Source: Fischerella sp. CENA71 (GTDB lineage Bacteria; Cyanobacteriota; Cyanobacteriia; Cyanobacteriales; Nostocaceae). From it: a stretch of 63,269 nucleotides of DNA. Of this stretch, positions 45,104 through 62,426 are shown piece by piece. How positions within the stretch are numbered: the first letter of the stretch is position 1; every line of letters starts with the position of its first letter. The position numbers were made by a program, and so were the translations under genes. The stretch covers positions 1 through 63,269 of the forward strand of contig JANBVI010000045.1 of assembly GCA_024239075.1 (NCBI GenBank), given 5' to 3'. The notes under the pieces were generated by a model, which ran no database searches, was not told the origin of the DNA, and saw only the letters and a list, made by a program, of their open reading frames with translations.

Positions 45104-46324
45104 GTGAAACCAATTTCAATCCTTGGCTCCACAGGTTCTATTGGTACTCAAACTTTGGATATTGTTACCCAATATCCTAATGAGTTTCAGGTTGTGGGAT
45201 TAGCAGCTCTTAAAAATGTAGAATTACTAGCTCAACAGATCCGCAAATTTCAACCTGCGATCGCAGCTATCGGTGATTCACAAAAATTACCAGAATTACA
45301 AGCTGCGATCGCTGATGTTAAACCCCAACCTATTTTGCTTGCGGGCGAATCAGGAGTTATCGAGGTTGCTCGGTTCAGCAATGCAAAAATTGTAGTTACA
45401 GGTGTTGTCGGTTGTGCAGGTTTATTACCTACAATTGCTGCAATCAAAGCAGGTAAAGATATTGCCTTAGCTAACAAAGAAACTCTCGTTGCTGGGGGAC
45501 CAGTTGTCTTACCTTTAATACATGAATATGGTGTGAAACTGTTACCTGCCGATTCCGAACATTCAGCAATTTTCCAGTGTTTGCAAGGAGTACCCGATCA
45601 AGGACTGCGACGAATTCTACTGACTGCTTCTGGAGGTGCTTTCCGTGATTGGCCAGTTGAGAAATTATCCAGTATTACTGTAGATGATGCTTTAAAGCAC
45701 CCTAACTGGTCAATGGGTCGTAAAATTACCATTGATTCCGCCACTTTGATGAATAAAGGGTTAGAAGTCATTGAGGCTCACTGGCTCTTTGGTATTGACT
45801 ATGACCATATTGATATTGTCATCCACCCTCAAAGCATTATTCATTCATTAATTGAGCTACAAGACACCTCTGTGTTAGCACAATTAGGCTGGCCTGATAT
45901 GCGCCTACCACTGCTGTATGCTTTATCTTGGCCAGAGCGAATTTCTACAGATTGGCAACAGTTAGATTTAGTAAAGCTTAAAGAGTTAACCTTTTACGCT
46001 CCAGATCATCAAAAGTATCCTTGTATGCAACTAGCTTACGCAGCAGGTAGAGCTGGGGGTTGTATGCCAGCAGTGCTGAATGCAGCCAATGAGCAAGCTG
46101 TAGCTTTATTCCTGGAAGAAAAAATTCAATTTCTTGATATTCCTCGTTTGATTGAACAAGTCTGCGATCGCTACGTTATCCATAACTGTTCTAGCCCAAC
46201 TCTTGAAGACATCATTACAGCAGATCAATGGGCTAGACAGGAACTCATGAATGCTAGTCAAGTTTTAGAGCATTCGACTATAACTAAAGTTTCATCCAAA
46301 CAAAAAACTTTAACACTTACCTAA
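45104..46324 (+). CDS. dxr: 1-deoxy-D-xylulose 5-phosphate reductoisomerase
   Basis: A 406-residue second enzyme of the MEP isoprenoid pathway, making MEP from DXP with NADPH. Motifs: [13 protein letters not shown] (NADPH), [26 protein letters not shown] and, in the metal/substrate site, [18 protein letters not shown]. Length usual; GTG start with AGGA upstream. Its position among indole-alkaloid genes together with dxs and ispG marks it as a dedicated copy (D-type gene of hapalindole clusters) that boosts prenyl diphosphate supply. A housekeeping copy is expected elsewhere in the genome. Confidence 0.93.
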
Positions 46325-46718
46325 ATATCTTCTAATCGAGTACTCCACCCCACTAAATTTCAAAGGTTCGTAGTAAGGACTTTAGTCCTTTTTGAGTGCT
46401 GTCTTCGCTCAAAGAGGACTACATCTTTACAGTTACACAACATAATTTATACAAGTTTTATTAGAATTTTCTTCTTAAAATGTTGTTCAAAAAAGTACTT
46501 ATGTAACTATCAGATTTTGTAACAGCAAGTTAAATTGAGTAAAGAAATTACAGTAATTAGTTTTCGATAGAAATTACTCAAAATATGATTTTTTGCTTCA
46601 AGTAATGCAAAAAAAATATTTTTCAAATTCTGAATAAGATCATTGATTTAGGTAACATATTTGGTAATCAAAGTAATTAGTTCATAAAAACTCAAGAATC
46701 TATAATGTAAAATCCAAA
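46325..46718. other. Spacer with stem-loop repeat and possible isonitrile-synthase promoter
   Basis: No gene. Bases ~46363-46432 hold a dispersed repeat (GTAGTAAGGACTTTAGTCC and a related inverted part). A perfect TATAAT at 46701-46706 lies 12 bases before the first isonitrile synthase, but no convincing -35 box is seen at the right distance; if used, the transcript would be almost leaderless. Confidence 0.4.
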
Positions 46719-47678
46719 ATGCTCAGTGAAAAAATTCTCCGACATATATTCCAATATCGCCGTTTATTGTCAGATACAGAACCTTGTACTAAAGAACCCT
46801 GTTCAATGTGTCTGGCTCCTCATATTCCAAAAATACAATCATTTATTGAACATAATGAACCAATTCATTTTATCCTCCCAGCATTTCCTGCAAAATCACC
46901 TAATACTCAAAAAGTTTTAGGACCAATGCCAGATATGGGAGAACGAGTTGCACTCCAATTCCTTCAAAATTTGTGCAATCAAATCTCTAAAATATATACT
47001 CCTGGAGCAAAAATAACTATTTGTTCTGATGGTCGAGTATTTACTGATTTAGTCGCTATTACAGATGAGAATATAAGTCTGTATCGTCAAGGAATTGGAC
47101 AGCTACTTAATGAAATTAATGCAGATGCAATTGATACCTTCTGTCTTGAAAATGTCTTCAATGGAATGAGCTTTGATGAGATGAGAAAAACACTTGTCAA
47201 ACAATATGCTCAACCTATTGAAAGTATCCAAGAGCGGGTAAACAGTGAAGATAAACATCGTCAATTTTTCAATGGTATTTATCAATTGTTATTTGACGAT
47301 TATCTCGTTTTATATCCTGATAAATCTCGTAATCTGGTTGAAACTGAATGTCATATACGAGCTTATGAGGTCATCCAACGAAGTAATGCTTGGACTACAT
47401 TGGTTGGGCAACATTTTCCCCGATCTTTACGTTTGTCCATTCATCCTCAACATTATCACTCAGATAAGATTGGTATTCATATGATTAAAACCTCAGATCA
47501 GTGGGGAACTCCATGGCACAATGCTCCGGTGTTTGATGGTAAAGAGTTTTTCCTAATGAAACGCAAGCATATTGAAGATATAGGTGCTTCACTAGTTTGG
47601 CATGATGGTCATCCTAGTCACTACATCTTATCTAAACAAGTATCCCAACCTTTACTCACTGTTGACAGCAAGAGTTAA
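46719..47678 (+). CDS. isnA: Isonitrile synthase I1 (IsnA/PvcA family)
   Basis: A 319-residue enzyme of the DIT1/PvcA family. Family motifs: IHFILPAFPAKSPN, LGPMPDMGE, ICSDGRVFTDL and LRLSIHPQHYHSDKIG, plus TEPCTKEPCSMC near the N terminus. Known members (IsnA, AmbI1/WelI1) condense L-tryptophan with ribulose 5-phosphate, whose C2 becomes the isonitrile carbon. It is roughly 65-70% identical by eye to the I2 copy downstream. The start ATG aligns with Met13 of I2. Two such synthases in tandem is the hallmark of hapalindole-type clusters. A tRNA-Trp gene follows 98 bases after its stop. Confidence 0.92.
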   Translation: MLSEKILRHIFQYRRLLSDTEPCTKEPCSMCLAPHIPKIQSFIEHNEPIHFILPAFPAKSPNTQKVLGPMPDMGERVALQFLQNLCNQISKIYTPGAKITICSDGRVFTDLVAITDENISLYRQGIGQLLNEINADAIDTFCLENVFNGMSFDEMRKTLVKQYAQPIESIQERVNSEDKHRQFFNGIYQLLFDDYLVLYPDKSRNLVETECHIRAYEVIQRSNAWTTLVGQHFPRSLRLSIHPQHYHSDKIGIHMIKTSDQWGTPWHNAPVFDGKEFFLMKRKHIEDIGASLVWHDGHPSHYILSKQVSQPLLTVDSKS

Positions 47679-47776
47679 ATAGAGCATCAGGTTACGCAAT
47701 TCAATTAGCAGGTACTCTACCTTAATCTCTGTTAAATTCAAATTGAACAGCCTCACACATTGCTAATAAAAAACAT

Positions 47777-47850
47777 GTGGGGATAGTGTAACTGAGTAAC
47801 ATATTGGTCTCCAAAACCAAAGAATCTAGGTTCAAATCCTAGTCCCCACG
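47777..47850 (+). tRNA. tRNA-Trp(CCA), copy 1
   Basis: Folds as a full cloverleaf of 74 nt. The acceptor stem is 7 bp (GTGGGGA/TCCCCAC), then U8 and A9. The D stem is 4 bp with a G-U closing pair. The anticodon stem is 5 bp (TTGGT/ACCAA) with loop CTCCAAA, so the anticodon CCA is at 47811-47813. The T stem is 5 bp (CTAGG/CCTAG) with loop TTCAAAT. Discriminator is G73, as expected for bacterial tRNA-Trp; CCA is not encoded. The D loop reads G18-A19 where G18-G19 is normal, which weakens the elbow contact. It lies between the two isonitrile synthases. It may be functional or a tRNA-like element. Confidence 0.85.
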
Positions 47851-48100
47851 CTAGAGCATGAGGTTGCTCACCAAAACCAGCACTTCTCAATCCTAAATGC
47901 ATACATCTTTAAAATTATTTCAGTATTTCACCAACTAAAAATTGATGAGTGCAGCCACCAGAAAGATTAAAGGGAAAAACAAGGAATAAAATACATGTTT
48001 CCTTTACCCTATTAATGAACTTGGAACTAGTACATAAATATATTTCCAATGCAGAGAATTTTGTTCAATTTAAGTATTAGTCACAAAGCATAGGTTTAAA

Positions 48101-49096
48101 ATGACTCAAATTATAAATGTGACTCAATCAAAGGTGATGAGTGAACAGGTTCTAAGACATGTGTTTCGTCATCGCCGTTTAATCTCAAATACAGAGCCTT
48201 GTGTACGTCAACCCTGTTCAATGTGTCTAGCTCCTCACCTTAAAAAGGTTCAATATTTTATTGAACATAACGAGCCAATTCATTTTATTCTTCCAGCATT
48301 CCCTGCAAAATCACCTAATACTCAAAAAGTTTTAGGTACTTTGCCAGATATGGGAGAACTAGTTTCACTTAAATTTCTTCAATCTCTTTGTGATCAGATC
48401 AGTGAAATATATGCTCCTGGAGCTAAATTAACAATTTGCTCTGATGGTCGGGTATTTAGTGATCTTGTCGCTGTTACAGATGAAAATGTGACTTTATATG
48501 GTCAAAGAATTCAAGCACTGCTAAAGGAAATAAAGGCAGATGCAATCAATGTCTTCAATCTGGAAGACATCTATACTGACCTCAGCTTTGATGAGATGAG
48601 ACAGAAACTTGTCAAACTCTATAGTCAAAGTATCGAAGCTATTAAAGAAGCTGTGAAAAACGATGATCATCAGTGTCAAATGTTCAATGGTATTCACCGT
48701 TTTTTGGTTGAAGATTATCAGGTATTGGAAGCTGATAAAAGTCGTAACAAAATTCGACTTGAATGTAAGGCAAGAGCTTACGAAGTAATTCAACGCAGTA
48801 ATGCTTGGAGTGTACTAATTTCAGAACTTTACCCTAACTCAGTACGCTTATCTATACATCCTCAACATTACCATTCAGAAAAAATTGGTATCCACATGAT
48901 CAAGACATTAGATCAATGGGGGACTCCATGGCACAATGCTACAGTCTTTGATGGAAAAGAATTTATGCTCATGAAGCGAAGCCATCTAGAAAGTATGGGT
49001 GCTACCTTAGTTTGCCAAAATGGTCATCCTAGTCATTTTGCATGGACTGAACAGCCATTAGAAACTCGTCTTAGCGTTCAGGAGGCTATTCAATGA
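48101..49096 (+). CDS. isnA: Isonitrile synthase I2 (IsnA/PvcA family)
   Basis: A 331-residue paralog of I1 with the same motifs: IHFILPAFPAKSPN, LGTLPDMGE, ICSDGRVFSDL, VRLSIHPQHYHSEKIG and WGTPWHNATVFDG. It is 12 residues longer at the N terminus (MTQIINVTQSKV). Hapalindole clusters characteristically carry both I1 and I2; why two are needed is not clear from sequence. The stop codon overlaps the start of the oxygenase gene (ATGA), so translation of the two is coupled. Together they make indolyl vinyl isonitrile from tryptophan. Confidence 0.92.
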   Translation: MTQIINVTQSKVMSEQVLRHVFRHRRLISNTEPCVRQPCSMCLAPHLKKVQYFIEHNEPIHFILPAFPAKSPNTQKVLGTLPDMGELVSLKFLQSLCDQISEIYAPGAKLTICSDGRVFSDLVAVTDENVTLYGQRIQALLKEIKADAINVFNLEDIYTDLSFDEMRQKLVKLYSQSIEAIKEAVKNDDHQCQMFNGIHRFLVEDYQVLEADKSRNKIRLECKARAYEVIQRSNAWSVLISELYPNSVRLSIHPQHYHSEKIGIHMIKTLDQWGTPWHNATVFDGKEFMLMKRSHLESMGATLVCQNGHPSHFAWTEQPLETRLSVQEAIQ

Positions 49097-49914
49097 TGGT
49101 TTCTACTTCTTTTGGGCAATCAACGCAATTTAGCGTCAAACCACTAACTCCTTTTGGTGCATTGCTTGAATCAACTGAATACCACTCAGATATTAAGCAA
49201 CTGTCCATTGAGCAGTTATGTCAATTAACTTGGGAACACCGATTGATTGTCCTGCGTGGTTTTTCACTGTTAGAGCGTGAAGAATTATCAAGCTACTGCC
49301 AACGTTGGGGTGAGCTATTAGTTTGGAATTTTGGTACGGTTCTTGATTTGATTGTTCACCAAAATCCTGAAAACTATTTATTTACCAATGGAAATGTACC
49401 GTTTCATTGGGATGGAGCTTTTGCTGAAGCTGTACCACGCTTTCTATTTTTTCAATGTCTGAAAGCTCCAGAAGCAGGAAGTGGTGGCGAAAGTTTATTT
49501 TGCGATACAGTACGGATTTTGGAAAATGTAAGCCCCCAAAAACGCGAAGTTTGGCAAAAGACTGAGATTAGTTACAAAACTCAAAAAGTTGCTCACTATG
49601 GTGGAGAGATTACCAAACCTCTTGTGAGTAAGCATCCCATAACTGGTCTTTCAACACTTCGTTTTGCAGAACCATTAAACGATGGAAGCGTGCATCTCAA
49701 CCCGTTGTATGTTGAAGTTTGTAATCTATCAGCCGAAGAACAAAACCAATTTCTGAGTGAGCTAATAGAAAATCTTTACTTACCGCAAAATTGTTTTGCA
49801 CACGAATGGCAAGAAGAAGATTTTTTGGTAGCTGACAATCATGCGCTGCTACATGGTCGTAACCCCTTTCTTTCCAATTCCCAGAGACATTTGCAACGAG
49901 TACATATTTTATAA
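49093..49914 (+). CDS. isnB: Fe(II)/2-oxoglutarate oxygenase I3 (IsnB/PvcB family)
   Basis: A 273-residue TauD-like oxygenase. The iron facial triad is visible as H105-x-D107 (PFHWDGAF) and distal H254 (ALLHGR), with Arg265 or Arg269 to bind 2-oxoglutarate. In this pathway the enzyme oxidatively decarboxylates the isocyano acid to an indolyl vinyl isonitrile. Geometry (Z in hapalindoles, E in others) cannot be read here. Start overlaps the I2 stop by 4 bases, with GGAGG upstream. The second tRNA-Trp gene lies 166 bases downstream, before the prenyltransferase. Confidence 0.92.
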   Translation: MMVSTSFGQSTQFSVKPLTPFGALLESTEYHSDIKQLSIEQLCQLTWEHRLIVLRGFSLLEREELSSYCQRWGELLVWNFGTVLDLIVHQNPENYLFTNGNVPFHWDGAFAEAVPRFLFFQCLKAPEAGSGGESLFCDTVRILENVSPQKREVWQKTEISYKTQKVAHYGGEITKPLVSKHPITGLSTLRFAEPLNDGSVHLNPLYVEVCNLSAEEQNQFLSELIENLYLPQNCFAHEWQEEDFLVADNHALLHGRNPFLSNSQRHLQRVHIL

Positions 49915-50080
49915 ATTTTGGCAGCGATCAAGAGCGATCGCGATTATGTGATCTCCATTTAAACACCAGTCATTGAGGCTGACGAGAAGAGAAGTGAGAA
50001 CGCAGACATAGAAAGAGGTACTGGCGGGTAATTTACTGAAATTATCACTTAAGTAATTCCCGCCACTCTCAACCAAAAAT

Positions 50081-50154
50081 GTGGGGATAGTGTAACTGGA
50101 TAACACATTGGTCTCCAAAACCAAAGATTCTAGGTTCAAATCCTAGTCCCCATG
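50081..50154 (+). tRNA. tRNA-Trp(CCA), copy 2
   Basis: 74-nt cloverleaf differing from copy 1 at 5 positions (19, 20, 25, 47 and 72). Acceptor GTGGGGA/TCCCCAT has a G1-U72 wobble. The D stem is fully Watson-Crick, with canonical G18-G19 in the loop. Anticodon stem and loop are identical, with anticodon CCA at 50115-50117. T arm identical; discriminator G73; no encoded CCA. Both differences that fall in stems keep pairing (G-C versus G-U), which argues for selection on structure. It lies between the oxygenase and prenyltransferase on the same strand. Confidence 0.88.
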
Positions 50155-50231
50155 CTAGAGCAACAGTTTGAAATCCGTCTGCTCTCATCACAGTTCATGA
50201 TTATCTAACTTGAAATTGAGGTAAGTAGCAA

Positions 50232-51158
50232 ATGAACGACGTTAACCGTATACGCACTGATATCGTCAATGTTGCTAAAACTTTTGGAGCAGAATATTCT
50301 GAAAAAGTTTTGGACGAAGTATTCCAAGTTTTTGGTGATCAATTTGCCGATAACTCATTCATGATTCGGACAAGCAACAAACAACCAGATAAATTAGGTT
50401 GCTATTTTCGTTATCATGAGGAAGATGAAAGTCATCTTGGGTTTGCATGGAATATTGCTAGAAAATCAGGTCTTTTATCTGATCAAGGTCGTCCAGTAGA
50501 TCGACTGATACCAGAAATTTGTGAAACTTTTCCAATCATGGCAGATGGTGTAGATTTTGATGTTAAACACGGATTAGCAAAAATCTGGCAGAGTCTTAAA
50601 GGAGTTGTCCCTGTACAAGATGCTTTTAAATTATCTCTGCCAGAAAGTGTTACTACTCATGCAGATTTTCTTAAAAATCACCATCTTGATGCTCTTTACG
50701 CTTTTGGAGTTGACTACCACCACAGTTCAGTCAATCTATATTTCGACACTTACCATTCAAAACATCACACATCTGAGTATTACAAAAATCTTTTACAGGA
50801 TCTACAATTTCAATCACCTTCTGATGAACTTCTTGAACTATTAGCAAGTAATCGAGAAATTGCACTAACCTTTAATTTTGCTTCTCCTCGAATTGAGCGG
50901 TTGTGTTTTTACCTTCCCTTTTTAAATCGTGAAGCTGTGCCTCAAAATCTTCTAACTCCATTACTAAAAAAATATATTAACGAGGCTCCAGCATTAGTGG
51001 ATAATCCAGGTTTTATTTTAGGTTGGTCATTCGGTCCACAAGGGGGCAAGGGAACTTACACTAAAGTTGACGTAGACTACCATGGTCGAACTGTACCTTT
51101 ATTTGTAAAAGTACACAGCCAACCATTACCTAAAGCTGCTGATTTTGCTCTTACTTAA
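50232..51158 (+). CDS. ABBA-type aromatic prenyltransferase (AmbP1/WelP1-like)
   Basis: A 308-residue protein of the Orf2/CloQ/NphB type: N-terminal DIVNVAKTFGAEYS, a central DYHHSSVNLYFDTYH and a final barrel strand block (FGPQGGKGTYTKVDVDYHG). It lacks the DDxxD of ordinary prenyl synthases, as expected for the soluble ABBA barrel. AmbP1 and relatives add geranyl diphosphate to C3 of indolyl vinyl isonitrile, giving the precursor that Stig cyclases fold into hapalindoles. Its position right after I1-I3 is as in those clusters. Donor chain length cannot be proved from sequence. Confidence 0.9.
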   Translation: MNDVNRIRTDIVNVAKTFGAEYSEKVLDEVFQVFGDQFADNSFMIRTSNKQPDKLGCYFRYHEEDESHLGFAWNIARKSGLLSDQGRPVDRLIPEICETFPIMADGVDFDVKHGLAKIWQSLKGVVPVQDAFKLSLPESVTTHADFLKNHHLDALYAFGVDYHHSSVNLYFDTYHSKHHTSEYYKNLLQDLQFQSPSDELLELLASNREIALTFNFASPRIERLCFYLPFLNREAVPQNLLTPLLKKYINEAPALVDNPGFILGWSFGPQGGKGTYTKVDVDYHGRTVPLFVKVHSQPLPKAADFALT

Positions 51159-51402
51159 TAAATAAAGTGTGTAAAAACAAGAGTTGAAATTACTCTTTGC
51201 TCTAGGTAAAAAAGAGTGATTCAATACAGTTAATTTCAAGTTAATGGGTGGGTCAAGAAAGCTCACCCTACTACTTTGATTTTTGAAAAAAACTTACTCA
51301 TTTTCTGTTCCTCATTTTCTGTTAAGAGTCTTCACAAATTAAATTCATGAATCAAATTGAATAACTATAGCTAGCTATTTTACTTATAACGTAACTATTC
51401 TT

Positions 51403-53355
51403 ATGAAACTGAGTCAGATTACTCATCCAAATCAATTACACGGACTGTCAATTTCACAATTGGAAGAAATAGCACGTCAGATTCGAGAAAAGCATCTACA
51501 GACAGTATCTGCTAGTGGAGGTCATTTGGGCCCAGGTTTAGGCGTGGTTGAACTGACGTTGGGACTTTACCAGACTTTAGACCTCAATCGAGATAAAGTT
51601 ATTTGGGATGTGGGTCATCAAGCTTATCCACATAAGTTAATAACTGGACGGTGCGATCGCTTTCATACTTTGCGACAAAAGAATGGTATTGCAGGTTATT
51701 TAAAACGTTGCGAAAGCCAGTTTGACCATTTTGGTGCAGGTCATGCTTCTACTAGTATCTCTGCTGCTTTAGGAATGGCTCTTGCCAGAGATATGAAAGG
51801 AGAAAATTTCAAAGTTGTCGCAGTTATCGGTGATGGTGCATTAACAGGAGGTATGGCTCTAGAAGCAATTAACCATGCTGGTTACTTGCCCAAAACTAAA
51901 TTGTTAGTTGTACTCAATGACAATGAGATGTCGATTTCTCCAAATGTCGGGGCGCTTTCTTCTCACCTCAATCAACTACGGTTTAGCTCTCCAGTCCAGT
52001 TACTTAAACAACTGGAAGAACAGTTTGAGCATCTATCACCTGTAAGTAATTTCTTAGCATCAGAATTGAACCGGATTAAGCAAGGTATAAAACGTTTGGC
52101 AGTGCCAAAAGTGGGGGCAGTATTTGAAGAATTAGGCTTTACCTACATGGGTCCAATCGACGGTCATAATTTGCCAGAACTGATAGCTGCTTTTGACCAA
52201 GCACATCACCAAACTGGGCCAGTGTTAGTGCATGTAGCAACGATCAAAGGCAAAGGATATGAATTTGCTGAACAAGAGAGAGTTGGCTATCATGCTCAAT
52301 CCAGATTCAATTTGGCGACAGGCAAAGCAATCACCTCTAGCAAGCCCAAACCACCAAGTTATTCTAAAGTCTTTGGTGAAACTCTTACCAAAATTGCTAA
52401 GGGTAACTCCAAAGTCATCGGCATCACGGCAGCCATGTCCACCGGGACAAAATTGGATATCTTACAGAAAAATCTACCTGAGCAATATATTGATGTGGGG
52501 ATTGCCGAGCAGCATGGAGTGACACTAGCAGCAGGTTTAGCGTGCGAGGGTATGCGTCCTGTTGTTGCCATCTACTCGACCTTTTTACAACGAGCGTATG
52601 ATCAAATCATCCATGATGTCTGCATTCAAAATTTACCTGTTTTCTTCTGCATGGATCGATCTGGTGTGGTTGGAGCAGATGGCCCCACCCATCAAGGAAT
52701 GTACGACATCGCCTATTTGCGTTGCATTCCTAATATGGTATTGATGGCTCCCAAAGATGAAGCCGAACTCCAGCAAATGCTGATCACTGGTATCAACTAC
52801 ACTGATGGCCCTATTGCCATGCGGTATCCACGTGGTGAAGGTCACGGAGTTCCCCTGATGTCAGAAGGCTGGGAAACCTTACCCATTGGCAAAGGAGAAA
52901 TCCTCCGTCAGGGAGAAGATGTGTTGATGGTAGCTTATGGTTCTATGGTATATCCAGCACTGCAAGCTGCTGCCATTTTGAATGAACATGGCATTCAAGC
53001 AACTGTAGTCAATGCTCGCTTTGCCAAGCCTTTAGATATTGAATTAATCATGCCTCTTGCTCAACAAATTGGTAAAGTTTTTACCTTAGAAGAAGGCTGT
53101 TTAATAGGTGGCTTTGGTTCAGCAGTTGCTGAAGCTCTACTTGAACATCGTGTGATTGTTCCGGTTATTCGTCTGGGTATAACAGACAAATTAGTTGAAC
53201 ATGCTACTCCCGAAGAATCTCTATCAGAACTAGGTTTAACTGCTCCGAAGATTGCCGATCGCATTCTCCAAGAATTTCAACAACAATCCAAATTGGATAT
53301 ACAAGTATTGCAAAATGGCTCCTCTGAGCAAAAAACTGATAGCTTTCGCCGTTAA
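51403..53355 (+). CDS. dxs: 1-deoxy-D-xylulose-5-phosphate synthase
   Basis: A 650-residue thiamine-diphosphate enzyme, first step of the MEP pathway (pyruvate plus glyceraldehyde 3-phosphate). Motifs: [25 protein letters not shown], and the ThDP site [18 protein letters not shown] with NDNEMSISP. In the transketolase middle and C-terminal domains, [15 protein letters not shown] and [15 protein letters not shown]. Full length, no gaps. It is a cluster-dedicated copy with dxr and ispG. dxs is usually flux-controlling, so its duplication makes sense for alkaloid supply. A 244-base spacer separates it from the prenyltransferase. Confidence 0.95.
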
Positions 53356-53483: not shown

Positions 53484-54710
53484 ATGCAAACTCTTTCAAC
53501 TCCCATCATCTCCAATTCTTCTTCTCAGCAGACATTCACTAATACCATTATCCCCCGCAGGAAAACTCGCCCAGTGCGTGTGGCTAATGTCACTGTTGGT
53601 GGTGGTTTCCCTGTAGTAGTCCAGTCAATGATTAATGAAGATACTTTAGATGTAAAAGCATCTGTAGATGCTATTCGTCGCTTGCATGAAATTGGCTGTG
53701 AAATTGTCCGCGTCACCGTACCTAGTCTGGCTCACGCTAAAGCTGTAGCTGAAATCAAGCAAAAGCTCAAAGAAATTTACCAAGATGTTCCTTTAGTAGC
53801 TGATGTCCACCACAACGGCATGAAGATTGCCTTAGAAGTGGCAAAACATGTTGATAAAGTGCGGATTAATCCTGGATTGTATGTCTTTGAAAAGCCCAAC
53901 ACCAATCGTACCGAATATACCCAAGCTGAATTTGATGAAATTGGCGATAAAATTCGTGAAACTTTAGAGCCTTTAGTCCTCTCTCTGCGCGATCAGGGAA
54001 AAGCCATGCGGATTGGCGTCAATCATGGTTCGCTGGCAGAGAGAATGTTATTTACCTACGGTGATACTCCCGAAGGTATGGTACAGTCGGCTCTGGAATT
54101 TATTCGCATTTGTGAATCTCTGAACTTCCGCAACTTAGTGATTTCTCTGAAAGCTTCCAGAGTTCCTGTAATGATTGCTGCCTATCGTCTAATGGCTCTA
54201 CGGATGGATGAATTGGGTATGGACTACCCCTTACACCTTGGTGTCACCGAAGCAGGCGATGGAGAATATGGTCGCATTAAATCCACTGCTGGAATTGCAA
54301 CTCTTTTAGCTGATGGTATTGGTGATACAATCCGCGTCTCTCTAACAGAAGCACCAGAAAAAGAAATTCCTGTTTGCTACAGTATTTTGCAAGCTCTGGG
54401 ATTACGTAAGACCATGGTAGAGTATGTAGCTTGTCCCTCCTGTGGTCGCACCTTATTTAATTTAGAAGAAGTGTTACACCAAGTGCGAGAAGCTACTAAA
54501 CACCTTACAGGTTTGGACATTGCTGTTATGGGCTGTATAGTCAACGGCCCTGGAGAAATGGCAGATGCAGACTACGGTTATGTAGGTAAGCAACCTGGCT
54601 ATATCTCTTTGTATCGTGGGCGAGAAGAAATCAAAAAAGTACCAGAATCCAAGGGAGTTGAAGAACTGATTAATTTGATTAAAGCTGATGGCCGTTGGGT
54701 CGATCCTTAA
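53484..54710 (+). CDS. ispG: 4-hydroxy-3-methylbut-2-enyl diphosphate synthase
   Basis: A 408-residue iron-sulfur enzyme (GcpE) of the MEP pathway, converting MEcPP to HMBPP. The TIM-barrel part has [20 protein letters not shown] and [10 protein letters not shown]. The cluster-binding C-terminal part has [16 protein letters not shown] and [17 protein letters not shown], providing three Cys ligands. Cyanobacterial enzymes use ferredoxin. Standard length. Third MEP gene in the cluster; ispD, ispE, ispF and ispH are not in the window, so the housekeeping set must fill those steps. Confidence 0.95.
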
Positions 54711-54887: not shown

Positions 54888-55793
54888 ATGCCGATAAATA
54901 AACCTTTTAAACTTGCTAGTCGGGAATTTCACAATGGAGAGCCAAGTGAAATTTTTGTCTCAACACCTAATGAAATTGTAGCCTTTGGTCAAAACCATCC
55001 GATTGTTCAAATAGCTGGTCCCTGCTCTGTAGAAAATGAAGAAATGATTATCTATACTGCTTTGCAAGTCAAGGCAGTTGGTGCTAAGTTTTTACGAGGT
55101 GGAGCTTATAAGCCTCGTACTTCTCCTTATGCTTTTCAAGGTCATGGTGAAAGTGCTTTGAGTTTGCTGGCGATCGCTCGTCAAGTTACAGGTTTGGGTA
55201 TTGTGACGGAAGTCATGGATACAGCTGACCTTGAGAAAGTTGCTTCTGTCGCAGACATTATCCAAATCGGTGCGCGTAATATGCAAAATTTCTCACTTTT
55301 AAAGCGAGTGGGAGCAATAAATAAACCAGTTTTGCTGAAGCGAGGCATGTCTGCCACTATTGAAGAATGGTTAATGGCAGCCGAGTACATACTGACAGCA
55401 GGAAACCCGAATGTAATTTTGTGCGAACGAGGAATTCGCACGTTTGACCAACAGTATACACGTAACACATTGGATCTGAGTGCTATACCAGTACTGCGAT
55501 CGCTCACTCACTTACCGATTGTAATTGACCCCAGTCATGGCACAGGTAAAGCAGAGTATGTACCTGCAATGGCTATGGCTGCTATAGCAGCTGGCGCTGA
55601 TTCGTTGATGATTGAAGTTCACCCTGATCCAGCCAAAGCGCTTTCTGATGGTCCTCAATCTTTAACGCCAGAGCAATATGGCAAGTTAATTCAGGACGTC
55701 ATTGGAATTAGTAAAATTTTTGGTCGTTGGTCTCAAAAATATCCTATATCTACAGGACATCTTGCTTTACCAATACATGCTACCAACACATGA
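54888..55793 (+). CDS. aroF: DAHP synthase (AroA I-beta type)
   Basis: A 301-residue enzyme making 3-deoxy-D-arabino-heptulosonate 7-phosphate from PEP and erythrose 4-phosphate, the entry to aromatic biosynthesis. Motifs: [48 protein letters not shown] and [17 protein letters not shown]; final [17 protein letters not shown]. There are only ~35 residues before the barrel, so neither an N-terminal ferredoxin-like/ACT domain nor a chorismate mutase domain is attached. Such catalytic-core versions are generally not feedback-inhibited through those domains. That suits a pathway-dedicated copy; regulation is inference. Confidence 0.92.
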
Positions 55794-55875
55794 TATGCAG
55801 ACAAGGGGGACAAAGACGACAAGGAGCTAATGCAAAATTAGGAAATTTGCTTCAAGTTATTGGAGATAATTATTA

Positions 55876-58080
55876 ATGTTTTTGAATAATCATGATTACA
55901 TAACTAAAGCTGGGGTTAAGGTATCTCGCTTCGTTACTGAGACTTTCATAGATACTGCGATCGAACATATTTTATTGTGTATTGATTCTCAACGTGGAGG
56001 ATTGTTCAAAAGCAGCTATGAATATCCAGGAAGATACAAAAGATGGGCAATTGGTTTTGTTAATCCACCCTTAGAACTTGTTACTCGTGAGAACTTTTTT
56101 AAATTCACCGCTCACAATCAACGAGGCAAAGTAATACTTTCGTATTTGGCAGAATTTTTAGATAAGCACCCACAACTGCAAGAAATAGACCAGGATGACC
56201 AGCATATCACTGGTTCTATCAAACCAAAAGAAAGTTTCTTTTCAGAGGAAGAAAGAAGTAAGCAACCATCAGTTTTCAGTATCATTCGCGAAATTTTATA
56301 TGCCTTTGAAAGTCCTGAAGATGAAAATTTAGGACTGTATGGTGCTTTTGGTTATGATTTGGTTTTTCAATTTGAATCTATGGAAAAACTGCTCCCACGT
56401 TCTACAGAGCAGCAAGATTTATTACTTTATTTACCAGATGAATTATTCATCATTGATTATTATTTACAACGTGCATTTTGTTTACAATATGATTTTGAAA
56501 CCAAACATGGTAGTACTAAGGGACTTTTTCGCGGTGGTGAAGTAATTGATTACAGAGGTAAGTGTCTTACTCCTGCTCAATCTTCAGATCATGAACCTGA
56601 TGAATATGCACAGCAAGTTTGTAAAGCACTCTTATATTTCCGTCGTGGTGACTTGTTTGAAGTTGTTCCTAGTCAAAGCTTTTATAGACAATGTCAACAG
56701 TCTCCGGCAGAATTATTTCGCACTTTACAACAAATCAATCCTAGCCCCTATGGATTCATTTTGAATTTAGGTGGAGAGTATTTGATTGGCGCATCTCCAG
56801 AAATGTTTGTGCGAACTGAAGGTAGACGTGTAGAAACTTGCCCAATTAGTGGTACGATACGTCGGGGAGACAATGCAATTGATGATGCTGCTCAAATTCA
56901 GAAGCTTCTCAACTCAGGCAAAGATGAAGCTGAACTGACCATGTGTACTGATGTGGATCGCAATGATAAGTCACGCATATGTGAACCAGGTTCAGTACAA
57001 GTAATTGGTCGTCGTCAAATTGAGATATACAGCCATTTAATCCACACAGTAGATCATGTGGAAGGCTTACTCAGACCTGAGTTTGATGCTTTAGATGCAT
57101 TTCTAACTCATCTGTGGGCTGTTACAGTTACAGGAGCGCCAAAACGGTCAGCAATGCAGTTTATTGAACAGCATGAACGCAGTTCTCGACGTTGGTATGG
57201 TGGAGCGGTTGGTTACTTAACTTTCAAAGGAGATTTGAATACAGGTCTGATTTTGCGAACTATCCAGCTTAAGGACTCAATTGCCGAAGTGCGAGTGGGT
57301 GCGACAGTTCTTTACGATTCAGATCCACAAGCAGAAGCTCAAGAAACTCTCACTAAAGCTGCTGCTCTGTTTCAAACACTTTACCAGACTCAACAAAAGA
57401 CTGATAATGTTGTCAACAACATCGACATCAATCAAAATTTTATCAAATCTAAAGCTGAAAATAGTAAACAAATATTATTGATAGACTATGAAGATTCATT
57501 TGTTCACACTTTAGCAAACTATATTCGTCAAACTGGTGCTGTCGTCAAAACATTACGCCATGGCTTTTCCGAATCAGTCTTTGATACGGAAAAGCCGGAT
57601 CTTGTTGTCTTATCTCCTGGGCCCGGTAGACCTAGCGATTTTCATGTAGTAGAGACAATCGTAGCTTGTATAAAACGACAGATTCCCATCTTTGGTGTTT
57701 GTTTAGGATTGCAGTCCATTGTTGAAGCGTTTGGAGGTAAACTGGGAGTTCTAAATTATCCTCAACATGGTAAAGTATCCCGGATTTCTGTTATGGATTC
57801 AGAATCTGTTACTTTCAAAAACTTACCCAAATCATTTGAAGTTGGTAGATATCACTCATTATTTGCTTTACCTGAGACTCTCCCCACAGAATTAAAAGTG
57901 ACAGCAATCTCAGATGATGGCGTAATTATGGGTATCGAACATCAAACATTACCGATTATCGGCGTTCAATTCCACCCAGAATCAATCATGACTTTAGCTG
58001 GAGGAGTTGGTCTAGGAATTATTAAGAATATAGTTGGTGCATGTACAACTAAAAAACCTTCTTCAGTTGTCGTTGCATAA
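55876..58080 (+). CDS. trpEG: Anthranilate synthase, fused TrpE-TrpG
   Basis: A 734-residue fusion. Residues ~1-515 are the chorismate-binding TrpE part (PLELVTRENF, ADGSPSPYGF-like NPSPYGFILNLGG, CPISGTIRRG, DVDRNDKSRI, YGGAVGYLTFKG). Residues ~533-734 are the glutaminase TrpG part (DYEDSFVHTLANYI; nucleophile in FGVCLGLQSI; FHPESI). The N-terminal Trp-binding segment SSYEYPGRYKRW is that of the Rhizobium/Agrobacterium fused type, with FKSSYEY where Agrobacterium has FSSNYEY. This might ease feedback inhibition, which is inference. It makes anthranilate for tryptophan in this cluster. Confidence 0.95.
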   Translation: MFLNNHDYITKAGVKVSRFVTETFIDTAIEHILLCIDSQRGGLFKSSYEYPGRYKRWAIGFVNPPLELVTRENFFKFTAHNQRGKVILSYLAEFLDKHPQLQEIDQDDQHITGSIKPKESFFSEEERSKQPSVFSIIREILYAFESPEDENLGLYGAFGYDLVFQFESMEKLLPRSTEQQDLLLYLPDELFIIDYYLQRAFCLQYDFETKHGSTKGLFRGGEVIDYRGKCLTPAQSSDHEPDEYAQQVCKALLYFRRGDLFEVVPSQSFYRQCQQSPAELFRTLQQINPSPYGFILNLGGEYLIGASPEMFVRTEGRRVETCPISGTIRRGDNAIDDAAQIQKLLNSGKDEAELTMCTDVDRNDKSRICEPGSVQVIGRRQIEIYSHLIHTVDHVEGLLRPEFDALDAFLTHLWAVTVTGAPKRSAMQFIEQHERSSRRWYGGAVGYLTFKGDLNTGLILRTIQLKDSIAEVRVGATVLYDSDPQAEAQETLTKAAALFQTLYQTQQKTDNVVNNIDINQNFIKSKAENSKQILLIDYEDSFVHTLANYIRQTGAVVKTLRHGFSESVFDTEKPDLVVLSPGPGRPSDFHVVETIVACIKRQIPIFGVCLGLQSIVEAFGGKLGVLNYPQHGKVSRISVMDSESVTFKNLPKSFEVGRYHSLFALPETLPTELKVTAISDDGVIMGIEHQTLPIIGVQFHPESIMTLAGGVGLGIIKNIVGACTTKKPSSVVVA

Positions 58081-58261
58081 ATATCTTTTTAGATATGCCT
58101 CTAGTGTCCCATTAATTTTGATGAGTTACATAAGTAATTAATTTAATAATTAATCATTTTTTCCTCTTTTCTTGGCACACTTGGCGTCTACCCTCCGGGA
58201 ACCCCCTTTGCGTGTATGGCAGTTCATTTTTTACAGTCACTACCAATCATCCCCATCTCAT

Positions 58262-59113
58262 ATGGATGTACGCAAGAGTATCTCCACTATTGAAATAAAC
58301 TTAGCAAAACCGCGTCATATTCTCGAAGAGATTGTATGGCACAAACGAAAAGAGGTTGCATCTATGGATGAGCAACTGTCTTTTGCAGACTTACAAAATC
58401 AGATTAGTACTGCTCCTCCTTTACGAAATTTCCTGGATGCTTTGCGCCAGAATCCGAATAAACCGAGCTTAATTGCTGAAGTTAAGAAAGCTTCACCTAG
58501 TAAGGGAGTGATTCGTGCCGATTTTAATCCAGTTAAGATTGCTCAGGCATATGAACAAGGCGGTGCTACCTGTCTATCAGTACTAACTGAACAAAAATTC
58601 TTTCAAGGCAGTTTTGAGAATCTGCGGTTAATTAGAAAAAGCGTAGGATTACCTCTATTGTGTAAGGAGTTTATTATTGACCCTTACCAAATTTATTTTG
58701 CAAGAGTCAATGGAGCAGATGCAGTGTTACTGATTGCTGCCATCTTATCTAATGAAATTCTTGAGAATTTTCTAGAGATTGTTCAGCATTTGGGCATGAC
58801 TGCTTTAGTAGAGGTGCATACTCTGGCTGAACTTGATCGGGTAATGGCACTATCAAATGTGCAATTAATAGGGATTAATAACCGTAATCTTGAAAATTTT
58901 AGCGTTGAACTAGAAACAACTCAACGTTTATTGAAAAAGCGTCGAGAACAATTAAATAATTCAGGTATCACTGTGGTAAGTGAGTCTGGTTTGTACACAT
59001 CAGCTGACTTAGCTTTTGTTGCAAAAGCAGGAGCCGAAGCAGTCTTGATTGGAGAATCTCTGGTAAAGCAAACAGATTTAGAACAGGCTGTAAAAAAGCT
59101 AATGCATAAATAA
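58262..59113 (+). CDS. trpC: Indole-3-glycerol phosphate synthase
   Basis: A 283-residue TIM-barrel enzyme. I take the ATG at 58262 as start because the protein homology ([16 protein letters not shown]) begins soon after; an upstream TTG at 58172 would add 30 non-homologous residues. Catalytic motifs: [60 protein letters not shown] and VSESGLY. No TrpF is fused; the preceding step (phosphoribosylanthranilate isomerase) must come from elsewhere. Member of the trp block EG-C-A-B-D. Confidence 0.94.
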
Positions 59114-59160
59114 AATCTGTAGAGTCAATCCAAAATCTAAAATCCCAAATCTAAAATCGA

Positions 59161-59985
59161 ATGACCTCTATTTCTCATCACTTTGCATCCTTACGAGCCA
59201 GTAATCAGTGCGCTTTGATTCCCTTTGTAGTAGCTGGTGATCCTAATTTAGAAATCACAGCAGAAGCCTTACGAGTTTTAGATTCTAGCGGTGCTGATTT
59301 GATTGAATTAGGAGTTCCCTACTCAGATCCATTAGCTGATGGGCCAGTAATTCAAGCTGCTGCAACCCGTGCTTTAAAACGGGGAACCCGTTTAGATAAT
59401 ATTTTGCAAATGGCTCAAACAGTTACACCTAAGTTGCGATCGCCTATTATTATTTTTACTTACTACAACCCAATTCTAAATTTAGGCACAGTTTCGTTTC
59501 TAGAAAAAGCCGCAGCATCAGGAATTAAAGGGTTAATAGTACCTGATTTGCCTTTGGATGAGGCAAGCAATTTGTTAGAGGTTGCTGATACTGTGGGAAT
59601 TGAGGTGACTTTGTTAGTGACTCCTACAAGTTCAAAAGAACGCATACAGGCGATCGCTCGTCAATCTCGTGGTTTTATTTACCTCGTTAGTGTCACGGGC
59701 GTAACTGGTATGCGCTCCCAGCTGCAAACTCGTGTTAAAGATGTGCTTCAAGATATTCGTAGTATTACAGACAAACCTATTGGTGTTGGTTTTGGCATAT
59801 CTAAAGCAGAACAGGCTCGTCAAGTGAGAGATTGGGGCGCAGATGCTGCGATCGTCGGTAGTGCGTTTGTAGAGCGTTTAGCTGAAAGTACACAATATCA
59901 AGGACTGGGAGCTATTAAAGATTTCTGTCGTGATTTGAAGACATCAATAGAAGGCAGAAGAGAGGAAGCAGAAAGCAGAAGATAA
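59161..59985 (+). CDS. trpA: Tryptophan synthase alpha subunit
   Basis: A 274-residue TIM-barrel subunit that splits indole-3-glycerol phosphate to indole. Motifs: [19 protein letters not shown] (catalytic Glu), [15 protein letters not shown] (catalytic Asp), [10 protein letters not shown] and GFGISKAEQ. It ends in a charged tail ([11 protein letters not shown]), a little longer than usual. Only 47 bases after trpC; that gap has three CCAAATCTAAAATC-type repeat words. Immediately followed by trpB, so the two subunits are coexpressed. Confidence 0.95.
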
Positions 59986-60041
59986 GAGATTTAATACTTC
60001 AAATTTTAATCATTGTATAACAATATTTTTGTGTGAAGTTT

Positions 60042-61289
60042 ATGTTATTAAATGCACAACAGAATCAAGCTGCAACTCAATTACTCACTCAACAACCTGA
60101 CCCAAATGGTAGGTTTGGTCAATTTGGTGGTAAGTATGTACCTGAAAGTTTAATGTCAGCACTGACTGAATTAGAAACCGCCTTTCAGCAATACCGCGCT
60201 GATCCACTGTTCCAACAAGAGCTTCAAGCACTGCTACAGGACTATGTTGGACGTTCTACTCCCCTTTACTTTGCTCAAAGACTAACTGAACATTATGCTA
60301 AACCTGATGGTACGGGGCCACAAATTTATCTTAAACGTGAAGATTTAAACCACACAGGAGCGCACAAAATTAACAATGCTCTGGCGCAAGTGCTGTTAGC
60401 AAAGCGCATGGATAAACAGCGGATTGTGGCGGAAACGGGAGCAGGTCAACACGGTGTTGCTACTGCTACCGTGTGCGCTCGTTTTGGTTTAGAATGTGTA
60501 ATTTATATGGGCATCCATGACATGGAACGGCAAGCCCTAAATGTGTTCCGGATGCGGCTGATGGGAGCAGAGGTTCGATCTGTTGAAGCAGGAACAGGAA
60601 CCCTCAAAGATGCAACTTCTGAGGCAATTCGGGATTGGGTAACAAACGTCGAAACAACCCACTATATCTTAGGTTCAGTTGCGGGGCCACATCCTTACCC
60701 AATGATGGTGCGGGACTTTCACACGGTGATTGGCAAGGAAACTCGCGCTCAAGCAATTGAGAAATGGGGGGGACTACCAGATATTCTTTTGGCTTGTGTG
60801 GGTGGAGGTTCCAATGCGATTGGGCTGTTTCATGAATTTGTGGATGAACCTTCTGTGCGCCTGATTGGTGTTGAAGCGGCTGGTGAAGGTATTGATACAG
60901 ATAAACACGCAGCAACTTTGACTAAAGGAAGAGTCGGAGTTTTGCACGGTGCAATGAGTTATGTACTACAGGATAAAGATGGTCAAATTGTTGAAGCACA
61001 CTCTATCAGTGCTGGGTTAGATTATCCCGGAGTTGGCCCTGAACATAGTTATTTGAAAGAAATAGGACGTGCTGAATATTACAGTGTGACAGATCAACAA
61101 GCGCTACAAGCATTTAAACGTCTTTCACAACTGGAAGGAATTATTCCAGCGCTGGAAACAGCACATGCGATCGCATATCTAGAAACTCTTTGCCCACAAC
61201 TTACAGGTAACCCGCGAATTGTCATCAACTGTTCCGGACGTGGTGATAAAGATGTACAAACAGCTATCCAATTTTTAAACCCAGCTTAA
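60042..61289 (+). CDS. trpB: Tryptophan synthase beta subunit
   Basis: A 415-residue PLP enzyme joining indole to serine. Motifs: [15 protein letters not shown], the PLP lysine in [39 protein letters not shown] and CSGRGDKD. The ATG at 60042 is taken; a GTG 9 bases earlier is possible. Standard length. It lies 56 bases after trpA and 39 before trpD. Tryptophan from here feeds both isonitrile synthases of the cluster. Confidence 0.95.
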
Positions 61290-61328
61290 ATGAAGACAAA
61301 GTAATTTAGTAAAAATTTTTACTTAAAT

Positions 61329-62426
61329 ATGGTTACAACATCTGTAATTGAAACCAATTCAACATTCCATGATTCCTCCAATTGGAGTGAGTTATTACAA
61401 CAATTGTTAGATCGTCAATCGCTGACAACTGATCAAGCCAGTGAATTAATGTACGGCTGGCTCACAGATGCTATTCCTCCTATATTATCTGGTGCGATTT
61501 TGGCAGCAATTCAGATGAAGGGTGTGTCTGCACAAGAGTTACTGGGTATGGTGAAGGTTTTATACTCTCAATCATTACGACCAACATTACGGGATATGGT
61601 TGTTGGTGATTCCCCACTCATTGATACCTGTGGTACTGGTGGAGATGGAGCATCAACATTTAATATTTCCACGGCTGTCGCTTTTGTGACAGCAGCTGCC
61701 AAGGTAAAAGTTGCAAAACATGGTAATCGTTCTGCATCTGGTAAAACTGGATCAGCAGATGTTTTGGAAGTTTTGGGAGTCAATTTGAAAGCAAGTAGTA
61801 AGAAAGTTCAAGAGGCTGTTGATGCAGTTGGTATAACTTTTCTATTTGCACAAGATTGGCACCCAACTCTGAAAGTTTGTTACCCACTGCGAAAAACACT
61901 AAAAGTACGTACAGTCTTTAACTTGCTTGGTCCTCTGATTAATCCATTGCGACCAACAGGACAGGTTATAGGTGTTAATGATCCAGGATTGATTGAAACC
62001 TTTGCTTTGGTCTTACATCAACTAGGAATTCGTAAAGCGATCGTGCTTCACGGACGAGAAAAATTAGATGAAGCAGGTTTAGCTGATATTACTGACTTAG
62101 CGATCGTATCAAAACAACATTTGCGCTTGCTTGAACTTGCTCCTGAAAAATTAGGAATAAACCCAGCTCCAACTACTGAACTAAGGGGTGGGGATGCTCA
62201 GGAAAATGCCAGAATTCTCAAAGCAGTTCTTCAAGGTAAAGGTACTCAAGCACAGCAAGACATTGTAGCTTTAAATACAGCTTTAGCACTCTTTGTTGGC
62301 GAGGCAATTCCTGAAACAGGAGATGACATGAGTACCTTTGCAAAAGGTTTGACTCTTGCTAAAGACGTTATTGCAAGTGGGGTTGCTTGGACAAAGTTAG
62401 AACAGCTTGTTGAATTTCTGCGCTAA
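61329..62426 (+). CDS. trpD: Anthranilate phosphoribosyltransferase
   Basis: A 365-residue enzyme transferring phosphoribose from PRPP to anthranilate. Motifs: [19 protein letters not shown] (PRPP loop), [40 protein letters not shown] and [10 protein letters not shown]. Normal length and complete. Last of the trp genes; its order after trpB differs from classical operons but matches the T1-T5 blocks of hapalindole clusters as I recall them. Gap to the phosphatase is 24 bases. Confidence 0.94.

Follow-up and report, generated by a model that had tools for sequence, protein, structure and literature searches.

Why should a gene cluster for a tryptophan-derived alkaloid carry tRNA genes for tryptophan? 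The question arises in a 63,269-base stretch of Fischerella sp. CENA71 (GenBank assembly GCA_024239075.1, contig JANBVI010000045.1; hereafter the window), where two tRNA-Trp(CCA) genes lie among the genes of a hapalindole-type operon. What we describe is a tRNA-Trp of known kind in a new setting, with a role that can be tested; new here are its array origin, a further but degraded case from another genus, and the loss in one species of the copy between the isonitrile-synthase genes I1 and I2.

Two tRNA-Trp genes in a hapalindole-type operon

With ARAGORN we found two tRNA genes, and no more, in the window, both tRNA-Trp(CCA) on the + strand (47777-47851 and 50081-50155, coordinates that count one base beyond G73), and both were matched by Rfam family RF00005 (47777-47850 at 66.1 bits and 50081-50154 at 67.4 bits; gathering score 29). 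With relaxed filters, Rfam gave no further family at E<=1 in positions 43000-63269. One gene (tRNA1) occupies the spacer between I1 and I2 and the other (tRNA2) that between the oxygenase gene I3 and the prenyltransferase gene P1, both on the operon strand. The two programs thus agree with an earlier note on this DNA, which had drawn two CCA cloverleaves with G73 at these places. Its comparison of the two genes also holds: 5 of the 74 bases differ (19, 20, 26, 48 and 73), and the two stem differences keep pairing (G-U versus G-C in the D stem at base 26, G-C versus G-U in the acceptor at base 73). Neither gene encodes its CCA end, and the same is true of the genome's own tRNA-Trp. The CCA anticodon and G73 are identity elements of tRNA-Trp.

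The window contains I1-I2-I3-P1 together with genes for tryptophan and isoprenoid supply, by Pfam, which identifies the cluster as hapalindole-type, and the gene order matches that given for such clusters in the main text of PMC4236562. The earlier note went too far in stating that every surrounding gene makes or consumes tryptophan, since DXR, DXS and GcpE are isoprenoid-pathway genes. Its impression that such tRNAs had not been described for hapalindole clusters is consistent with a term search in which the word "tRNA" was absent from the main texts of PMC4236562, PMC4849077, PMC4558948 and PMC5009524 (supplements and record annotations lay outside its scope). A literature search for tRNA-Trp with hapalindole likewise returned nothing, and a wider one on tRNA genes gave a single paper, about a Synechococcus genome; annotations of deposited genomes, outside its scope, may well list such tRNAs.

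Relationship to housekeeping and array tRNAs

The Fischerella genome gave 44 tRNA matches among 150 candidates scored, with the housekeeping tRNA-Trp as a single gene elsewhere in the genome. Housekeeping tRNA-Trp was matched in 30 of the 31 genomes searched, this one included, and 22 of the 30 genes are identical over their full length. Following the earlier note's proposal to compare the cluster copies with the genome's other tRNA-Trp, we found them to be unlike it: against the 30 housekeeping genes, three cluster copies had a median identity of 0.52-0.56 and a best identity of 0.55-0.59, versus a best identity of 0.80-0.83 to tRNA-Trp genes from cyanobacterial tRNA arrays. FastTree places the 9 cluster genes among the 36 array genes and not with the 30 housekeeping genes. 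The 36 array genes, used also for the D-loop count given below, are the ARAGORN CCA calls in 53 array loci, namely L183 and the 52 described below, leaving out loci with a two-base anticodon call or no CCA call. The cluster tRNA, matched at E<0.01 by only two places in the Fischerella genome, is not an ordinary genomic repeat; the earlier note had said that such a repeat would refute its proposal.

tRNA2 had a BLAST match at E<=0.01 in 81 of 193 genomes drawn from the family, and tRNA1 plus flank had one at E<=1e-4 in 82 of 388 drawn from the order. We fetched 52 loci outside the genus, a part of the matches from the two scans, and all were arrays of 3-24 tRNAs within about 1.5 kb; in at least two (L095 and L098) the BLAST-matched gene is the array's tRNA-Arg. 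The cluster tRNAs stand outside any dense array, with only two tRNAs in 63 kb. Within the genus, Fischerella sp. PCC 9431 has an array of 18 tRNAs on contig 3 (L183), and four of the five genomes sampled show 41-44 tRNA matches (150 candidates scored per genome), suggesting that they have no array. Matches on plasmids were mostly from Nostoc and Tolypothrix (9 of 11 records). By sequence, the cluster tRNA-Trp genes belong to the mobile, stress-type array lineage.

The Anabaena array is reported to be silent, to respond to translation-inhibiting antibiotics by induction and to aid survival (PMC10272220). The cluster tRNAs share the tRNA-Trp lineage of the trn operon of Anabaena PCC 7120 and its relatives, judged from identity and tree with the Anabaena array itself not sequence-compared, and like it they are extra to the housekeeping set. 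They differ in that Trp is one among 3-24 tRNAs in the arrays, whereas in the cluster two Trp genes stand alone inside a biosynthetic operon. The published 18-base motif of TrcR, which controls the trn operon, had no match in the window with up to 3 mismatches, in a search made without a mapped operon promoter and without the 8-base form reported at the trn promoter. Phage-borne tRNA-Trp, for example in Enterococcus phages, is likewise extra and resembles the cluster tRNA in sequence, at 85% over 60 query bases, but the match spans 73% of the query, less than those to the cyanobacterial arrays, and no phage family appears in the Pfam matches of 10 neighbouring open reading frames. We rejected a viral origin, for which two IUPAC patterns had no exact match among viral contigs. 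We also dropped the idea that a mini-reading frame, ATG-TGG-GGA-TAG, across the tRNA 5' ends encodes a Trp leader peptide: array tRNAs, too, are commonly preceded by AT, and on inspection by eye the stop is missing from many arrays.

Two odd array-like tRNAs, Arg(ACG) and Asn(ATT), stray on contig 69 of the Fischerella genome (7375-7447 and 8143-8216 of L182, low scores). Each is followed by a similar flank that ends in CTTGCGCGG.

We also examined 14 isonitrile-synthase loci other than hapalindole clusters, with flanks of about 6.6-10.5 kb in nine and 1.5 kb in five (L059-L063). One, in another genus (G092, L185), carries a lone array-type tRNA-Trp (46.7 bits) directly before a DAHP synthase gene. 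The order there, on one strand, is a fragmentary isonitrile synthase, a homologue of I3 (61%), an FAD enzyme, a truncated peroxiredoxin, the tRNA-Trp and DAHP synthase; the FAD enzyme matches the Pfam tryptophan-halogenase family (40.4 bits, cut-off 21) and no NCBIfam family above cut-off. This tRNA is the sole match there to a library of 74 array tRNAs, and in the tree it groups with arrays, not with the cluster copies (support 0.77-0.88). It is degraded, with a D loop lacking GG and the T loop TGCAAAT, and may be decaying like the neighbouring synthase. The array loci examined, selected because they matched the cluster tRNA, hold 794 tRNAs, of which 35 are Trp, so two Trp captures beside isonitrile genes, if separate, are unlikely by chance. 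The family scan did not report this degraded tRNA, and other such cases may be missed.

At the same locus an RNA ligase (L185 3970-5103; Pfam RNA_ligase and T4_Rnl2_C, below the NCBIfam Rnl2 cut-off) lies on the other strand, about 2 kb from the tRNA-Trp. Elsewhere, PCC 9431 and F. muscicola SAG 1427-1 each have a second pair of isonitrile synthase and oxygenase genes, which stands away from the hapalindole cluster and has no tRNA (L197 9330-11059, L198 9791-11520). In another family (G426, L192 8573-11542) an isonitrile pair faces a TrpD homologue (66%), making a Trp-linked locus with no tRNA.

Conservation of the cluster tRNAs and their spacers

The genus sample comprised five genomes: the source, Pelatocladus maniniholoensis HA4357-MV3, Fischerella muscicola SAG 1427-1, Fischerella sp. 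PCC 9431 and Westiellopsis prolifica IICB1. A P1 scan of genome contigs gave four loci; no search by name was made for the hpi and amb clusters of the literature. Looking for the same tRNAs in other hapalindole-type clusters, as the earlier note had advised, we found tRNA2 in all five genomes and both copies in four. All nine cluster copies were called tRNA-Trp, with the CCA anticodon and G73. Across the four species that have tRNA1, none of its 74 columns varies and 23 of the 24 columns directly 3' of it are invariant, as compared with 48 of 228 variable columns (21%) in the remaining 3' spacer, a 22% difference in the 5' spacer (3 species) and differences of 9-16% at fourfold sites of I1, I2, I3 and P1. 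Computed from 48/228 and assuming independent columns, the chance of 74 unchanged columns is ~2.5e-8. For tRNA2, the mean difference is 3.5% versus 18% in the spacer upstream. These 5' spacer comparisons leave out L121 (tRNA1) and L124 (tRNA2), both of which have insertions. The alignments indicate that the tRNA sequence is under strong constraint, in line with the earlier note's view that structure appears selected.

Westiellopsis lacks tRNA1, and its I1-I2 spacer is 191 bases long versus 399-565 in the other relatives and 422 in the window. The loss was likely by deletion, since the outer spacer ends are kept. In Pelatocladus about 150 extra bases, with several short inverted repeats by eye, lie directly before tRNA1 (L121 7298-7543). 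A conserved promoter directly before tRNA1 is unlikely because of this insertion.

We found no terminator-like site on the + strand of either spacer, and promoter-like sites in 46300-51400 (both strands) numbered 9 versus 18.3 in shuffles. One + strand promoter-like site lies between I3 and tRNA2 (49918-49947), which could give tRNA2 and P1 a separate start. The folds of tRNA plus leader, with z of -0.99 and -1.92, are not unusually stable. A possible hairpin directly 3' of each tRNA has arms that are invariant in 4/4 species after tRNA1 and 5/5 after tRNA2. In a control, 10.6% of window positions had such a stem and 9 of 44 tRNAs were followed by one, and on account of this background we rejected the hairpins as strong evidence. 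The spacers I1-I2 and I3-P1 share only short matches of 14-16 bases, which is little to go on for a possible tandem duplication of a unit of I-gene plus tRNA. The 14-base direct repeat listed in Table 1 may be a mark left by the entry of the tRNAs; a repeat-like stretch after tRNA2 (50156-50169) has 3 mismatches to a 16-base pattern and is within chance (3 matches, 1.51 expected).

Table 1. Positions of the cluster genes, tRNAs and spacer features in the window
Feature	Position	Strand	Basis and remarks
DXR, isoprenoid pathway	45104-46324		Pfam; upstream
I1, isonitrile synthase	46719..47678	+	PF05141 DIT1_PvcA; gene name from PMC4236562
14-base direct repeat TAGAGCATCAGGTT / TAGAGCATSAGGTT	47680-47693; 47852-47865	+	after I1 stop; exact again after tRNA1
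tRNA1, tRNA-Trp(CCA)	47777..47850	+	ARAGORN, RF00005; G73, CCA end not encoded; D loop AACTGAGTA, without GG
Possible hairpin GAGCA-6-TGCTC	47854..47869	+	fold, alignment; weak; directly 3' of tRNA1
I2, isonitrile synthase paralogue	48101..49096	+	PF05141
I3, TauD-family oxygenase	49093..49914	+	PF02668
tRNA2, tRNA-Trp(CCA)	50081..50154	+	ARAGORN, RF00005; G73, CCA end not encoded; P1 ATG 77 bases on
tRNA2-to-P1 leader	50155..50231	+	77 bases, no indel in 5 species, 69/77 columns invariant
Possible hairpin AGAGCA-17-TGCTCT	50157..50185	+	fold; weak; directly 3' of tRNA2, in P1 leader
P1, aromatic prenyltransferase	50232..51158	+	PF11468
DXS, isoprenoid pathway	51403-53355		Pfam
GcpE, isoprenoid pathway	53484-54710		Pfam
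Tryptophan supply: DAHP synthase, anthranilate synthase, IGPS, TrpA, PALP (TrpB-like), glycosyl transferase 3 (TrpD-like)	54888..62426	+	Pfam

Possible roles of the cluster tRNAs

We tentatively favour, at somewhat under an even chance, a reading in which a tRNA-Trp of the array lineage was captured into the hapalindole operon and serves the Trp pool under drain or stress. Capture would have preceded the divergence of the five sampled species, and the captured gene now stands in two copies. The cluster tRNAs would be co-transcribed with I1-I2-I3-P1, excised by RNase P and RNase Z, given their CCA ends and charged by the one housekeeping tryptophanyl-tRNA synthetase (TrpRS). Each of the five genus genomes has one TrpRS above cut-off, split over two contigs in one genome; a dedicated second TrpRS was not found in these genomes, where the next-best matches reach about 33 bits versus a cut-off of 176.75. 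The tRNA-Trp pool would be enlarged when the cluster drains tryptophan or when indole intermediates stress translation, and a reserve of Trp-tRNA held by EF-Tu would keep tryptophan for protein synthesis, beyond the reach of I1 and I2. Excision would also cut the operon mRNA, and a punctuation effect may accompany it.

Several observations weigh against this reading. Under tryptophan shortage extra tRNA makes no more charged tRNA, so shielding by mere extra tRNA is a weak proposal; a Trp-tRNA reservoir, or relief of a TrpRS hindered by an indole intermediate, would escape this objection, and we put both forward as proposals. Transcription, processing and charging of the cluster tRNAs remain predictions. 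The D loop of tRNA1 reads GAG, with no GG, in all four species, which is expected to weaken the tRNA elbow; GG is present in tRNA2 of five species (as GGA or AGG) and in the same stretch of all 36 array tRNA-Trp genes. Since Westiellopsis has lost tRNA1, this copy seems dispensable. No tRNA was found at 13 of the 14 other isonitrile loci, five of the 14 having flanks of 1.5 kb, and the tree gives separate captures at the hapalindole cluster and L185 modest support. The Arg and Asn strays elsewhere in the Fischerella genome mean that stray array tRNAs are not unique to the alkaloid cluster. Finally, Trp content is 0.87% in 14 cluster reading frames versus 1.16% in 14 others in the window, which shows no Trp enrichment in the cluster proteins.

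The tRNA folds could instead mainly direct RNase P and RNase Z to cut the operon mRNA into I1, I2-I3 and P1-onward pieces of separate stability, the 3' hairpins guarding the new 5' ends. This we consider unlikely. The placement of both genes in spacers on the operon strand is as it predicts, as are the absence of terminator-like sites from the + strand of the spacers, the low number of promoter-like sites, the invariant hairpin arms 2-3 bases 3' of each tRNA and the indel-free P1 leader. However, comparable hairpins are common in the window and after other tRNAs, a promoter-like site stands between I3 and tRNA2, and Westiellopsis manages without tRNA1. Cutting alone would also have no need of the tryptophan identity, the kept anticodon or the second Trp case elsewhere, and what most favours a Trp-specific role over plain punctuation is that the isotype fits at both loci and that the anticodon has not changed. 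That the genes are relics of mobile arrays, left by recombination with no pathway role, seems quite doubtful to us. Their array lineage, the other strays in the genome, the absence of tRNA1 from one species and the degraded loops at L185 would suit relics; the invariance of all 74 columns of tRNA1 beside a variable outer flank, the retention of tRNA2 in 5/5 genomes and the persistence of cluster tRNAs in four genomes that seem array-free argue against them.

It is improbable, in our estimate, that the tRNA-Trp newly made within the leaders of P1 and I2 acts as a sensor, binding TrpRS, EF-Tu or processing enzymes and so coupling expression to Trp charging, as tRNA-like operators do. The fixed 77-base spacing, the conserved P1 leader and the single TrpRS are consistent with such a device, but Rfam found no further family around it and the tRNA-plus-leader folds are of ordinary stability (competing structures were not examined). 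That the genes supply Trp-tRNA as a substrate to a biosynthetic enzyme that depends on it, the situation in pyrroloiminoquinone clusters, is very improbable. There is a precedent in the ammosamides, where a tRNA-dependent ligase is reported to attach Trp to a scaffold peptide (PMC11117183). Lantibiotic-dehydratase, Fem and cyclodipeptide-synthase families were, however, unmatched among the 20 window proteins scanned by Pfam, in a cluster that may extend past the contig end, and isonitrile formation has been reconstituted from free L-tryptophan in E. coli lysates, according to PMC4236562. The ammosamide clusters, with their PEARLs (PMC11117183), likewise link Trp-tRNA to a tryptophan-derived product; the hapalindole cluster differs in having no such enzyme among the proteins scanned and in carrying the RNA gene itself.

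In bacteria, E. coli thrU-tufB is an operon with tRNA genes co-transcribed with mRNA. The hapalindole cluster resembles such operons in having spacer tRNA genes on the mRNA strand, whose release by RNase P and RNase Z is predicted here; it differs in that its tRNA is specific for the very amino acid made and used by the operon, with co-transcription presumed. More broadly, and with considerable doubt, biosynthetic clusters may carry an RNA part for self-protection, namely a tRNA for the drained amino acid, captured from mobile stress arrays more than once, at the hapalindole clusters and at the broken L185 locus, and expressed together with the pathway so as to divide that amino acid between translation and product. 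Should the cluster tRNAs prove to be made and charged, the cluster would bear an RNA component fitted to the amino acid of its own pathway, unlike in kind to efflux pumps or altered targets, and the stress-tRNA arrays of cyanobacteria would gain a concrete use outside the array. For those who engineer the pathway, a cluster moved without its tRNAs may lose growth or yield.

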